From the NCBI GenBank assembly GCA_002069605.1, contig MWBQ01000028.1:1-37911 (forward strand): 37,911 bases of DNA, in the 5' to 3' direction. The translations under genes were made by a program, and so were the position numbers. The stretch comes from Candidatus Atribacteria bacterium ADurb.Bin276 (GTDB lineage: Bacteria > Atribacterota > Atribacteria > Atribacterales > Atribacteraceae). Below are positions 23,786 to 28,760 of the stretch, piece after piece. Below the pieces are notes generated by a model. That model was not told the origin of the DNA, did no database searches, and saw only the letters and a list, made by a program, of their open reading frames with translations. Position 1 is the stretch's first letter; the number at the start of each line of letters is the position of its first letter.

Positions 23786-24793
23786 TTGTCTATAAATGCC
23801 AAACACAAACAAATTGAATATCGTCTTGATTGTTTTGAAATTTCTGATATAAAGAAACTTTTCGGGTATTTAGATAAAAATCTTCGATTAATCGAAGAGA
23901 TATTTCAAGTTAATATCGATTTAACACCAGAGTCCCTTATAGTTGGGGAAAAGAATGATGATGCCAGTTTGACACAGGTGAAGACCTTTCTTGATGAGCT
24001 GGCGGCTTTTATGAAAGAAGGACATGATTTGACTAGTGATGATATCCAAAAAATGGCAGCTACCATTAAGGAAGGTAGAGAAATCTGGTGGAAGAAAAAT
24101 TATAGCCAGGGAATTATCACCACTGCTTACCATAAAATCATTCATCCCCGAACCGCTGGGCAGGTGAACTATGTCCGTGCGGTGAAAGAAAATGAACTCA
24201 TTTTTTGTATTGGACCAGCGGGAACTGGTAAAACCTATTTAGCCATGGCGATGGCCTGCGCTGCTCTTCAAAAAAAAGAGGTTAGCCGGATTGTTTTAGT
24301 GAGGCCGGCGGTCGAAGCCGGTGAAAGCCTGGGATACCTTCCTGGTGACCTCCGAGAAAAAATTGAACCCTATCTTCGTCCGCTTTATGATGCTTTATAT
24401 GAAATGCTTTCTCCCGAACGTTTTCAAAAATATATTGAAAAAGACATTATAGAAGTGGCTCCATTAGCCTATATGAGAGGGAGAACTTTAAATGATTCTT
24501 TTATTGTTCTTGATGAAGCTCAAAACACTACACCGGAACAAATGAAAATGTTTTTAACTCGTATGGGTTTCGGCTCAAAAGTGGTAGTTACCGGGGATAT
24601 AACTCAAGTTGACCTCCCATCTGGAAAAAATTCCGGTCTCATGGTAATACAGAAAATACTTGCCGATGTTTCTGGTGTCGAGTTTATCTATTTAACCGAG
24701 AAGGATGTGGTACGACATCAACTCGTCCAGAAGATCATCCAAGCCTATGAAAAATTCGAAAAGAACCTTCCAACTCAAGAAAAAAGTACTTGA
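23786..24793 (+). CDS. phoH: PhoH-family ATPase
   Basis: A 335-residue P-loop ATPase of the PhoH/PhoL group. An N-terminal KH-like region is followed by the ATPase with Walker A GPAGTGKTYLAMAMA near residue 145 and Walker B FIVLDEAQNTTPEQMKMFLTR near residue 240. The family is linked to RNA metabolism and sits next to ybeY in many genomes, as here. The start is TTG 23786, with the GAGGG of the preceding gene's end as a distant ribosome binding site. No better start is seen. Confidence 0.93.
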   Translation: MSINAKHKQIEYRLDCFEISDIKKLFGYLDKNLRLIEEIFQVNIDLTPESLIVGEKNDDASLTQVKTFLDELAAFMKEGHDLTSDDIQKMAATIKEGREIWWKKNYSQGIITTAYHKIIHPRTAGQVNYVRAVKENELIFCIGPAGTGKTYLAMAMACAALQKKEVSRIVLVRPAVEAGESLGYLPGDLREKIEPYLRPLYDALYEMLSPERFQKYIEKDIIEVAPLAYMRGRTLNDSFIVLDEAQNTTPEQMKMFLTRMGFGSKVVVTGDITQVDLPSGKNSGLMVIQKILADVSGVEFIYLTEKDVVRHQLVQKIIQAYEKFEKNLPTQEKST

Positions 24794-26864
24794 TTTTTTT
24801 ACTTCTATTTTTATTCGTCTCCGAGCCATTCTTACTTTTCAATTTTGGAATTACCCCCTGTATGGACTGGGCCTCTTTTTCGTCCTTTGGGTTTCCTATT
24901 CAATGGGAGGCGTAGTGCTCAGTGAAGGCCAGATTGCTCCGAGAGATATCTTTGTTAGAAAAACCATTGAAATTGTTGACGTTAAAGCGACAGAGGAACG
25001 AAAAAACGCTTTGCTGGCTGAGTTAGTGCCGATTTTTCGAATTGATGAAAGCTTTACCCAAGAGCTTAAAAAAGAATATACCACCTTTTTTCAAGAATTA
25101 GAAGCCATTCGCAATACTGTTACTACTCCATCAATTTCCTTTGAAAGGAAAGAGGAATTTTTTCGCGAATGGAAAATTACTCCAGGAGTTTTCGAGTGGT
25201 TTATTGAAACAAATCCAGAAAAGTATGAAAGGATAAAAGAGGTATTTTTCTTAAACATGGAGAAAAACCTCGGTCAACCCATACGTGAAGGAGATGTTGA
25301 ACAAAAAATTTTAGAGAGTTATTCAGCATATGAAAGAATGAATTTAGAGGTTGACGAAATTCGCGTCTTGAATTTGCTAACCTCCCGCTTTTTAAAGCCA
25401 AATGCCAGAATAGATATAACTGAAACCGAGAAACAGCGGGAACTAGTTATAAAAAATATCGAACCGGTTAAACGATATATTCAAAAAGGTCAAATTTTAG
25501 TCAAAAAAGGAACCATTGTTACTCATACCGACTTAGAAAGTCTTCGTGCTTTAGGATTAGTCGGTGAACAATATGAATCTTACTTATTAGTTGCCCTGGG
25601 AATTCTAATTGTTTTTACTTTAGTGTTTGAATATTCTTTTATTAAAAAATTTATTGCGGAAATCATCCAGAGGAACTCTCTTCTTTTAATTCGAATCCTT
25701 ACTGCAATTGGGGTTATTGCTCTAAATGCTTTATCTCTTCGCTTTTCTTGGTATTTGATTTTATTAGCGGCAGTCCCATTTATTCTCTATACTTTGATGG
25801 GAAGAAATTTGGCTTTATGTGAATCACTCATTTTGTTTCCTCTTTTAATGTGGGGGGAAAGGGCTGATTTTATGCGGAGCTTTTATATCTTTATGAATCT
25901 TTTTTTGCCGCTGTTTTTGTTGGACAAAACTATTAAACGCCGCGATCTGGTAAAAACCGGTTTTTGGATAGCCCTGGCAAACATACTGATGGTGATAATA
26001 TTTGGTTTGCAGGAGGGAAATGCTCCTTTAGAATTCCTCGTCAATTCGGTTTATGGATTTGGAGGAGCTATCATTGCTTCAATCGCAGCCTTGGGTGGGA
26101 TATCCTTGTTTGAGACCACCTTTCATGTCGCTACGGATTTTCGCCTTTTGGAATTGGTCAACCCCACCCATCCATTACTTAAACGCTTGATGATGGAGGC
26201 TCCTGGAACTTATAGCCACAGTCTTATGATGGCCAATCTTGCTGAAGCTGCTGCCGATGCTATCGGAGCAAATCCACTATTGGCTCGAGCCGGTGCCTAT
26301 TACCATGATATTGGTAAAATCAAGCGACCCTATTTTTTCATCGAAAATCAAATGAGTGAAAATATCCATAATCGCCTTTCTCCCCATCTAAGTACGCTGG
26401 TGATTCAAAACCATCTCAAAGATGGATTGGAAATAGCTCGGAAATACCATTTACCAGTTGAAATTCAAAACATTATTCAAAGCCACCACGGAAATACCGT
26501 AATGCGGTATTTTTATGATAAAGCAATCAAACAAAAGAAAGATGATGTAACTGATACCGAGTTTCGTTATCCAGGACCTCTTCCCAAAACCCAGGAAGAA
26601 GTTCTCATTTTTTTAGCCGATAGCGTTGAAGCTGCTATCCGGAGTGCAAATAATCTCAATTCTAGTCGGTTGGAAGCAATAGTAAATGGAATAGTTCAAA
26701 ATTATCTCAAAGATGGGCAACTGGATGATTCACCGCTTACCATGCGGGATATTCATAAAATTTCTGATGCCTTTGTTATGATATTAAGTGGGATGTTCCA
26801 TGCCAGAGTTCCTTATCCGGAAAATACGGTGAATGGTGAGGACAAGGGCAGTAAGGGAGATTAA
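24747..26864 (+). CDS. pgpH: 7TM-HD family phosphohydrolase (PgpH type)
   Basis: About 705 residues. An N-terminal transmembrane anchor (WNYPLYGLGLFFVLW) leads to an extracytoplasmic 7TMR-HDED domain (about 60-280), seven transmembrane helices (about 280-465) and a cytoplasmic HD domain with GTYSHSLMMANL and GAYYHDIGKIKRP. PgpH enzymes hydrolyse cyclic di-AMP, so control of this second messenger is the likely role. The start is uncertain: ATG 24747 lies inside phoH with a 47-base overlap and a weak ribosome binding site, and no other plausible in-frame start occurs before 24903. Confidence 0.92.
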   Translation: MKNSKRTFQLKKKVLDFFTSIFIRLRAILTFQFWNYPLYGLGLFFVLWVSYSMGGVVLSEGQIAPRDIFVRKTIEIVDVKATEERKNALLAELVPIFRIDESFTQELKKEYTTFFQELEAIRNTVTTPSISFERKEEFFREWKITPGVFEWFIETNPEKYERIKEVFFLNMEKNLGQPIREGDVEQKILESYSAYERMNLEVDEIRVLNLLTSRFLKPNARIDITETEKQRELVIKNIEPVKRYIQKGQILVKKGTIVTHTDLESLRALGLVGEQYESYLLVALGILIVFTLVFEYSFIKKFIAEIIQRNSLLLIRILTAIGVIALNALSLRFSWYLILLAAVPFILYTLMGRNLALCESLILFPLLMWGERADFMRSFYIFMNLFLPLFLLDKTIKRRDLVKTGFWIALANILMVIIFGLQEGNAPLEFLVNSVYGFGGAIIASIAALGGISLFETTFHVATDFRLLELVNPTHPLLKRLMMEAPGTYSHSLMMANLAEAAADAIGANPLLARAGAYYHDIGKIKRPYFFIENQMSENIHNRLSPHLSTLVIQNHLKDGLEIARKYHLPVEIQNIIQSHHGNTVMRYFYDKAIKQKKDDVTDTEFRYPGPLPKTQEEVLIFLADSVEAAIRSANNLNSSRLEAIVNGIVQNYLKDGQLDDSPLTMRDIHKISDAFVMILSGMFHARVPYPENTVNGEDKGSKGD

Positions 26865-26980: not shown

Positions 26981-27029
26981 GTAGAATGAGTAAAGGCAAT
27001 CATACCTATCGATAAATTAAAAGGAGTCG

Positions 27030-27860
27030 ATGATGGCTACTGTTATCGTGAACCGTTCATCAAAAGAAGCTACTCTCTCTCGTGCAGTAATAAAAAAAAT
27101 CGTCGATTATGTTTGTGAATTGGAGAATCGTGAGATTCTTGGAAAGTTGAGCATCGCCTTTGTAAGTCTTGATGAGATAAGGGCTTTGAAAAAAGAATTT
27201 TTTCATCAGAATATCGATACCGATGTCATATCTTTTTTTTATGGAACGGAAGAACCGGACGAAGTATGGGGAGAAATCATTATTTGTCCGGAAAAAGCAA
27301 GAGAATATGCTAACACCTATGGGACTAAATATGAAAATGAACAAAAGTTACTTCTCATTCATGGTCTTTTACATATATTGGGTTACGATGACATTGACGC
27401 GAAAAAAAAACATATCATGGAAACTAGACAAAACTATATTCTTGAGCAATTTCTTACTGCAGAAAAACGCGATCTATTAGTAATATCAGCCCAAAAAGCA
27501 CAACATTATGCCTATGCCCCTTATTCGCTCTTCCCGGTAGGTGCAGCCTTGGAAACCTGTGATGGTAAAGTGATTCAAGGGGGAAACATTGAAAACGCTT
27601 CTCTGGGGTTGTCGGTATGTGCCGAAAGAGTTGCTCTTTTTAAAGCAGTTTCTATGGGATTTGCTACCTTCACTCGACTGGCAGTAATATCTTCCGATCA
27701 AGATTATTGTCTTCCTTGTGGTGCCTGTCGGCAAGTTTTGCATGAGTTTGCGCCTCATCTTGAAATCTTAGCTGCCCGACAGGAGGGAGATTATCAGGTT
27801 TACATTTTAGATGAACTCCTCCCCAATCCCTTTCAGTTCAATCCCGAAAAAGGGAGATAA
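27030..27860 (+). CDS. ybeY-cdd: Fusion protein: YbeY rRNA maturation factor + cytidine deaminase
   Basis: A 276-residue single frame with two domains. Residues 1-145 are YbeY-like (FHQNIDTDVISFFY, EIIICPEKA). In place of the usual HGxLHLxGYDH metal motif it reads HGLLHILGYDD, with His111, His115 and Asp121, so the third ligand is changed from His to Asp. Residues 150-270 are a cytidine deaminase with zinc ligands Cys197, Cys230 and Cys233 and the catalytic glutamate Glu199 (CAER, PCGAC), which turns cytidine into uridine. In Firmicutes, ybeY, dgkA and cdd are separate neighbours upstream of era. Here dgkA is missing and the other two are joined. The second codon, ATG 27033, has better spacing to AGGAG and may be the true start. 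Confidence 0.9.
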   Translation: MMATVIVNRSSKEATLSRAVIKKIVDYVCELENREILGKLSIAFVSLDEIRALKKEFFHQNIDTDVISFFYGTEEPDEVWGEIIICPEKAREYANTYGTKYENEQKLLLIHGLLHILGYDDIDAKKKHIMETRQNYILEQFLTAEKRDLLVISAQKAQHYAYAPYSLFPVGAALETCDGKVIQGGNIENASLGLSVCAERVALFKAVSMGFATFTRLAVISSDQDYCLPCGACRQVLHEFAPHLEILAARQEGDYQVYILDELLPNPFQFNPEKGR

Positions 27861-27863
27861 GCC

Positions 27864-28760
27864 ATGGAAGATCGGGCTAGCTTTCGTTCAGGTTTTGTAA
27901 CCATTTGGGGGAGACCAAATGTTGGGAAATCTACTCTCCTCAATAGCATTTTAAAATATAAAATTACCATTGTCAGTGATAAACCTCAAACCACACGAAA
28001 AAATATAAAAGGAATTTTAAATCACCCCGATTGTCAAATCGTTTTTATCGATACCCCTGGGCTTCATGTTCCGGTTGACCCCCTTGGCGAATTCCTTTCC
28101 AATCAATGGAAAAGTTCGCTTTTCGATGCCGATTGTTTGCTCTATTTAACCAACCCTGGTGTTTCGGTTGATACTGACGAAATCTATCTAAAAGAGATCC
28201 GAAATTTTCCCCATCCGGTCCTATTAATCGTGAATAAAATTGATTTATTTAAAAAGGGAACAATTCAAAAAACCATTCATGAATTTTCTCAACATTTTTC
28301 TTTTCACGATATTCTTGAGGTTTCAGCTTTAACAGGTGTCGGACTGGAACAATTAATCCAGAAAATCCGCGACCTTCTTCCCATCAGTCCACCCTATTTT
28401 GATGAGGAACAAATATCTGACGTCTATGAAAGAGATATTGTTGGGGAAATGATTCGTGAAAAAGTTTGGCATCATATTCATCAAGAAGTTCCTTATGGGG
28501 TGGAAGTACGGGTTGAAGAATTTAAAGAGAAGGAGAATTTGGTATCTATACGGGCTATAATTTATGTTGAAAAGGATTCCCATCGTAAAATTATAATCGG
28601 AGGGAAGGGAAGCATGATTAAAAGAATTGGTTCAGATGCCAGAAAAGACTTGGAGGAATTTTTTGGGGTAAAAGTGTTTTTAGATCTATGGGTTAAAACT
28701 CAGCTGAATTGGAGAAAAAAACCCGCTGTCTTAAGAAGATGGGGTTATACAATCCGATGA
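27864..28760 (+). CDS. era: GTPase Era
   Basis: A 298-residue GTPase that helps 16S rRNA maturation and 30S assembly. G1 GRPNVGKST (about 16-24), G2 region TTRKN, G3 DTPG and G4 NKID are followed by a C-terminal KH domain with IIIGGKGSMIKRIGSDARKDLE. The start is ATG 27864 behind GGGAG, four bases after the ybeY-cdd stop. The stop overlaps recO (ATGA). Confidence 0.96.
   Translation: MEDRASFRSGFVTIWGRPNVGKSTLLNSILKYKITIVSDKPQTTRKNIKGILNHPDCQIVFIDTPGLHVPVDPLGEFLSNQWKSSLFDADCLLYLTNPGVSVDTDEIYLKEIRNFPHPVLLIVNKIDLFKKGTIQKTIHEFSQHFSFHDILEVSALTGVGLEQLIQKIRDLLPISPPYFDEEQISDVYERDIVGEMIREKVWHHIHQEVPYGVEVRVEEFKEKENLVSIRAIIYVEKDSHRKIIIGGKGSMIKRIGSDARKDLEEFFGVKVFLDLWVKTQLNWRKKPAVLRRWGYTIR

Follow-up and report, generated by a model that had tools for sequence, protein, structure and literature searches.

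A YbeY–cytidine deaminase fusion carrying Asp at the third metal position of YbeY is a trait of one class of Atribacterota

In the window, by which we mean the whole stretch of 37,911 nucleotides analysed from Candidatus Atribacteria bacterium ADurb.Bin276, one open frame of 276 codons and a stop on the forward strand encodes YbeY followed directly by a cytidine deaminase of the tetramer type. This fusion is a trait of one class of Atribacterota, and its YbeY half bears Asp in the place of the third metal-binding His, a variant that is common among YbeY proteins and not unique to the fusion. The explanation that we favour, with some reserve, is a bifunctional protein in which a working deaminase would be joined to a YbeY that holds a metal and contacts uS11, probably without the canonical RNase action. 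The features on which this account rests are collected in Table 1.

Table 1. Positions in the window of the fusion gene, of its parts and of the adjoining genes.
Feature	Position	Strand	Basis or remark
7TM-HD protein (YqfF type), upstream neighbour	24705..26864	+	Pfam
AGGAG ribosome-binding site	27022..27026	+	suits ATG 27033 better than ATG 27030; sequence and start context of relatives
ybeY-cdd fusion gene	27030..27860	+	open frame, 276 aa and stop; start probably 27033
YbeY half, residues 1-144	27030..27461	+	PF02130 and TIGR00043 above cut-off; model against 1xm5 Z 18.9, 1oz9 Z 19.1
Phe58, in the place of E. coli Arg59	27201..27203	+	alignment with 1xm5; 21 Phe and 1 Leu in 22 fusions
Glu82, in the place of E. 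coli Asp85 (uS11 contact)	27273..27275	+	alignment with 1xm5; Glu in 22/22
Metal motif H111-x3-H115-x5-D121	27360..27392	+	YbeY site reads H111-GLL-H115-ILGYD-D121
Single predicted helix uniting the halves, residues 124-158	27399..27503	+	AlphaFold2, block pLDDT 94-97; gapless join
Met130, Met-turn-like; unlikely second start	27417..27419	+	Met in 22/22; no conserved Shine-Dalgarno in 17 fusions
Gln134, in the place of E. coli Glu137 (human Glu141 by offset)	27429..27431	+	alignment with 1xm5
Cytidine deaminase half, tetramer type, residues 145-276	27462..27857	+	TIGR01354 above cut-off; Z 22.0 with 1jtk, 23.1 with 1mq0
C197-A-E199 of deaminase	27618..27626	+	invariant in 22/22 fusions
C230-x2-C233 of deaminase	27717..27728	+	invariant in 22/22 fusions
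Era-type GTPase (GTPase and KH domain)	27864..28760	+	Pfam MMR_HSR1 and KH_2; starts 3 bases past the fusion stop

Both halves were recognised by family models. Pfam YbeY (PF02130) matched residues 17-140 with an E-value of 4.9e-30 and 104.5 bits, well past its cut-off of 25, and the NCBIfam YbeY model TIGR00043 scored 108.4 bits (cut-off 45); the Pfam deaminase family matched residues 150-241, and NCBIfam TIGR01354 (cyt_deam_tetra) gave 133.5 bits (cut-off 113.65). The fusion is the sole YbeY match and the sole TIGR01354 match of its genome, a 2.5-Mb assembly of 231 contigs that is 98% complete. Translation probably begins at the second ATG, since both the AGGAG upstream and the starts of relatives favour it; clear AGGAG- or GGAGG-like sites precede the chosen starts in about 10 of the 17 fusions inspected. 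The deaminase half carries C-A-E and P-C-x2-C, which we take to be the zinc and catalytic motifs of tetrameric cytidine deaminases, C197, C230 and C233 being presumably the zinc ligands and E199 the catalytic Glu. The original prediction, that ybeY and cdd form one frame and that the deaminase zinc site is intact, is borne out on both counts, with 22 of the 25 class genomes alike and these four residues invariant in the 22 fusions. Judged by its sequence, the deaminase half is probably an ordinary, active enzyme, and it is probably tetrameric, although the structural model is of a single chain.

Of the 25 genomes of the class, 22 carry the fusion, the window genome included, in open frames of 275-324 aa; all 12 class genomes with a completeness of 90% or more and a contamination of 5% or less have it. 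The fusion-bearing genomes belong to 10 genera, the other 21 fusions are 41-90% identical to the window protein, and two of these genomes (G004 and G024) consist of a single contig; a similarity search of genome contigs gave two same-genus records with 82% and 89% identity. An assembly or base error that joined two genes and created the Asp codon, a doubt which the 231-contig state of the window genome might invite and which the original prediction had itself raised, is ruled out for practical purposes by these relatives, which share both fusion and Asp. Nor does the other circumstance hold that would have undone the prediction, separate genes with the canonical His in relatives, since 22 of the 25 class genomes share the fusion and the Asp. 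Among the three class genomes in which the fusion was not found, G016 (88% complete) and G018 (75% complete) gave no YbeY match, and the only YbeY of G002 is a stand-alone one of the His type on contig C110. We considered G002 as a same-genus counter-example and dropped it: on contig C110 the YqfF gene, 31% identical to that of the window (that of G004 is 93% identical), is followed by dgkA, so that the contig looks foreign, and G002 has a listed contamination of 6%.

Among the 25 genomes of the phylum outside the class, 22 gave a YbeY match, all stand-alone in frames of 148-170 aa; these 22 rows, from which G002 is excluded, serve below as the rest of the phylum. When a profile of the fusion was run over 386 genomes, 361 of them outside the class, both halves were spanned only in the 22 fusions among the matches listed, which extend to an E-value of about 5e-38, so that a fusion of very divergent sequence might have escaped notice. 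In plasmid records 55 had a match, none of which covered 80% of the fusion query, and a scan of viral contigs gave 12 loci with the match confined to residues 117-271. One long frame (G077) joins a His-type YbeY to an upstream frame and contains no deaminase.

In the YbeY half, codon 121 is GAC (27390-27392), and D121 aligns with H124 of E. coli YbeY (1xm5), so the earlier reading of HGLLHILGYDD, with Asp for the third His, holds. This position is Asp in 22/22 fusions against His in 22/22 stand-alone YbeYs from the rest of the phylum; the H3XH5XH triad of histidines is absent from the fusions, all of which have H-H-D. For a wider comparison we used 145 genomes beyond the phylum, each with a different family code, of which 138 gave a YbeY match and 136 a readable column (among loci L097-L235). 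There the third position is His in 96, Asp in 39 and Glu in 1; at the first two positions His never varies, whether in the 135 His- and Asp-types or in the single Glu row. The Asp-bearing proteins include those of Bacteroides finegoldii, Parabacteroides distasonis, Riemerella anatipestifer and a Prevotella, and database records of Asp-type YbeYs carry the YbeY annotation. The H3XH5XH signature thus fails in 40 of the 136 sampled YbeYs and understates the diversity of the family.

According to PMC3890501, the Asp-zincins have Asp as third zinc ligand with the spacing H-x3-H-x5-D. Had the site lost its metal, a restriction to His, Asp and Glu would be surprising; because the position shows this restriction, and because of the Asp-zincin precedent, the best reading of Asp121 is that of a metal ligand. 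The suggestion that Asp serves as ligand in a natural variant of the metal site gains from both points, and the variant has proved to be widespread and not specific to the fusion. In the literature accessible without journal subscriptions, our search recognised neither a report on Asp-type YbeY, nor data on its metal, RNase activity or ribosome binding, nor a report of a YbeY-deaminase fusion.

Two further residues set the fusions apart. PMC5101352 reports that H114, H118, H124, R59 and K61 of E. coli YbeY are needed for RNase activity and that the interface with S11 (uS11) is the beta-sheet with D85, not the RNase residues; in PMC7515705, on human YBEY, H128A and E141A are the more harmful substitutions for RNase activity in vitro, and H128A and R55A still rescued cells. 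The Arg59 equivalent is present in 0/22 fusions against 22/22 stand-alone YbeYs from the rest of the phylum. Outside the phylum it is lost in 44/136 overall, among them 25 of the 39 Asp-types (the other 14 keep Arg) and 18 of the 96 His-types. Fisher's test for an association of its loss with Asp gave p 1e-6 over the 135 outside rows, uncorrected for their relatedness by descent; a tree-based pair test yielded a single usable pair, too few to be informative. The Glu137 equivalent is likewise missing from all 22 fusions, which have Gln, Ala, Gly or Thr, against 21/22 present in the rest of the phylum; outside, Glu occurs in 60/96 His-types (6 gapped) and 17/39 Asp-types (p 0.056 for a link with Asp, gaps scored as not Glu). 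These frequencies among His-types, 60/96 for Glu137 and 18/96 without Arg59, mean that the two losses need not abolish activity.

The proposal that the YbeY half may have lost its nuclease chemistry gains from the missing Arg59 and Glu137 equivalents, which the first reading had overlooked. That reading had also posed a ligand Asp and a lost nuclease as alternatives; the two are compatible with each other. Elsewhere in the domain, the Asn of the LN motif is Lys in 21/22 fusions; in the TDVxSF motif, Asp65, Val66 and Phe69 do not vary among them. In the uS11 patch of E. coli YbeY, T42 and R44 correspond by alignment to Ser41 and Ala43 of the fusion, and the patch Arg (R44) is Leu in 23/23 rows of the rest-of-phylum type, G002 included in this count. 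E. coli Lys61 aligns with residue 60, which, read by eye, is Lys in 2/22 fusions; this position is not diagnostic, because the few rest-of-phylum frames that show the residue mostly have no Lys there either.

The YbeY half is not decaying but under strong purifying selection, as its dN/dS of 0.045-0.198 indicates in 13 pairs from five genera, for which some dS values are near saturation; the deaminase half gave 0.022-0.148. An AlphaFold2 model built from the 22-row alignment (mean pLDDT 92.0, pTM 0.85; a monomer without PAE) places residues 2-144 on E. coli YbeY and residues 145-273 on residues 1-131 of the B. subtilis deaminase, with the Z-scores of Table 1, so that no linker is left between the two. 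No gap occurs at residues 100-172 in any of the 22 fusion rows, which is what a fixed helical register would demand, and the continuous helix is predicted to fix the two halves rigidly together.

By Pfam, the gene order in the window is YqeY, PhoH, the 7TM-HD protein, the fusion, the Era-type GTPase, RecO, GlyQ, GlyS and a Kinase-PPPase protein. The original prediction noted that dgkA is absent, and indeed the window genome gave no match to it; in the class, one genome of 25 has a match, on the foreign-looking contig of G002. Absence is, for all that, nearly phylum-wide: 23 of the 25 rest-of-phylum genomes, some of them incomplete, gave no match either, so the absence has no tie to the fusion, and loss of dgkA probably came earlier than the fusion event or independently of it. 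In 14 of the 25 rest-of-phylum genomes the unfused cdd lies 4.0-7.4 kb downstream of ybeY on the same strand and contig. As a side observation by reading, in the four rest-of-phylum genomes followed to that point (L090, L091, L093 and L096) frames resembling a solute-binding protein and a large TRAP-like membrane protein (TRAP/TAXI) stand between ybeY and cdd, a RecO-like frame then follows, and no Era-like frame adjoins.

A single origin of the fusion is likely, as the fused YbeYs form one group and the join shows no variation in length. With the trait columns left in, the fusions had a weakly supported place among the Asp/Leu types of the YbeY tree, and their fork took in two outside rows; after removal of five trait columns they formed a group of their own (SH-aLRT 99) and the wider Asp/Leu grouping dissolved. 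A more careful tree, built from 54 of the 180 rows, grouped the 12 fusions that it included at 87/75. A joint clade of the fusions and the rest of the phylum was not rejected (p-AU 0.09, on the reduced set of 54 rows), the deep forks being poorly resolved. Against a single origin, the deaminase tree (83 rows), itself poorly resolved at depth, did not unite the 22 fusions and implied two changes, of which its starred branches force only one, so that two origins are not required by it. Transfer from a Bacteroidota-like YbeY, which we also considered, is at most a possible source, the Asp/Leu grouping having collapsed once the five trait columns were removed.

Compared with known proteins, the YbeY half is alike in fold to the YbeY / UPF0054 family of E. 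coli and human YBEY (besides the values in Table 1, Z 17.2 with 7y7o and 11.4 with the NMR model 1tvi), and shares with it the first two metal His, the Met of the Met-turn and most of the TDVxSF motif; it differs by Asp for the third His, Phe for Arg59, Gln for Glu137, Lys for the LN Asn and the C-terminal deaminase. The YbeYs of B. finegoldii (WP_007748675.1), P. distasonis (WP_005860456.1) and Riemerella (WP_014937792.1), annotated as rRNA maturation RNase YbeY, also have Asp as third ligand, with Leu for Arg59, and the fusions join the same two traits, Asp and loss of Arg59; unlike the fusion, these Bacteroidota proteins are stand-alone, keep the Asn of LN or IN and have Asp at the place of D85. 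The Asp-zincins, for their part, are peptidases with HExxH in place of the HGxxH of YbeY and, as defined in PMC3890501, lack a Met-turn. The deaminase half is 45-48% identical to the tetrameric enzymes of B. subtilis (1jtk) and human (1mq0) and shares their zinc and catalytic motif, but in the model its N-terminal helix continues the final helix of the YbeY half.

In the bifunctional housekeeping protein that we favour, two His and one Asp would hold the metal in the YbeY half, which would aid assembly of the 30S subunit together with uS11 and with Era, encoded next door. One acid of the uS11 contact is retained as Glu, and with the RNA-binding Arg59 and the active-site Glu137 gone, RNase activity would be weak or nil; the deaminase tetramer would display four copies of YbeY, and the fusion would have arisen from a ybeY-cdd-era gene order from which dgkA had already gone. 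The rival to which we give most thought, though we hold it rather unlikely, is that Asp-type YbeY is a fully working metallo-endoribonuclease with a catalytic His2-Asp site and with Phe58 and Gln134 standing for other ways of binding RNA. It accords with the invariance in the fusions of all three metal positions, the Met-turn Met and the three TDVxSF residues, with the known use of Asp as third ligand by zincin peptidases, and with the outside Asp-types that keep Arg59 (14 of 39) and the His-types that lack it (18 of 96); it fits poorly with the loss of both the Arg59 and the Glu137 equivalents in 22/22 fusions, given that R59A lowers activity in E. coli and that H128A and E141A are the more harmful changes in the human protein.

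The remaining readings concern what the fusion is for, or whether it exists as one protein. It might couple RNA turnover to pyrimidine salvage, the deaminase using freed cytidine, or let the level of pyrimidines act on ribosome assembly. The fixed length, the conserved join, the constraint on both halves and the proximity of the unfused genes on one strand and contig in 14/25 rest-of-phylum genomes would suit such coupling, yet the products of YbeY would be oligonucleotides and not nucleosides, and neighbouring genes also fuse without functional coupling; we think it improbable. A more elaborate proposal, of a rigid tetrameric assembly factor in which the deaminase would be scaffold and pyrimidine sensor for four metal-bound, non-cutting YbeYs and 30S assembly would be tied to pyrimidine supply, seems to us quite improbable. 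Finally, two proteins might be made from the one frame, by an internal start at Met130 or by cleavage, so that the fusion would be only apparent. An in-frame ATG for Met130 stands 15 residues ahead of the deaminase in all 17 fusions inspected, the Met is invariant in the 22, and two of the 17 (L021 and L024) have a GGAGG or GAGGAG somewhat far upstream of it. Met130 is, on the other hand, also kept in 22/22 stand-alone YbeYs elsewhere in the phylum, no Shine-Dalgarno before it is conserved in the 17 fusions, and the join is predicted to be a continuous helix with no linker; we regard two products as very improbable. To the error discussed above, finally, we would grant next to no chance.

The fusion bears on an open dispute, whether RNase activity is the real job of YbeY. 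According to PMC7515705, assembly of mitochondrial ribosomes is still rescued by human YBEY altered at the position of Arg59 or of the third His; the fusion is a natural test case, in which changes at these two positions are joined by a third and have been kept under strong selection in 22 of the 25 sampled genomes of the class. Cultured Atribacterota exist, namely Atribacter laminatus (3.1 Mb, 38.69% G+C) and Thermatribacter velox, as PMC7736352 and PMC11227167 report, and a fusion free of linker should ease structural work on the YbeY and deaminase halves.

A few minor observations may be added. In Mesomycoplasma hyorhinis (L318, NZ_LR214949.1, 1890-2732) the order is likewise ybeY-cdd-era without dgkA, and ybeY and cdd share a reading frame, as in a comparable stage; they differ from the fusion in being separate genes, with a stop and one codon between them, and in a His-type YbeY, which has Lys at the place of Arg59. 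Models of the dimeric cytidine deaminases (TIGR01355, PF08211 and PRK09027) also matched the fusion, starting at residues 105-114 (window 27342-27659, residues 105-210) and so covering the last part of YbeY together with the helix at the join; both NCBIfam models stayed below their cut-offs and PF08211 exceeded its own, and this is perhaps a chance match of helices. The wider family PF00383 has two further matches in the source genome, and a second, distant deaminase-like gene of 141 aa (L028, G001:C382:2566-2934) is 29-30% identical to the Cdd half.
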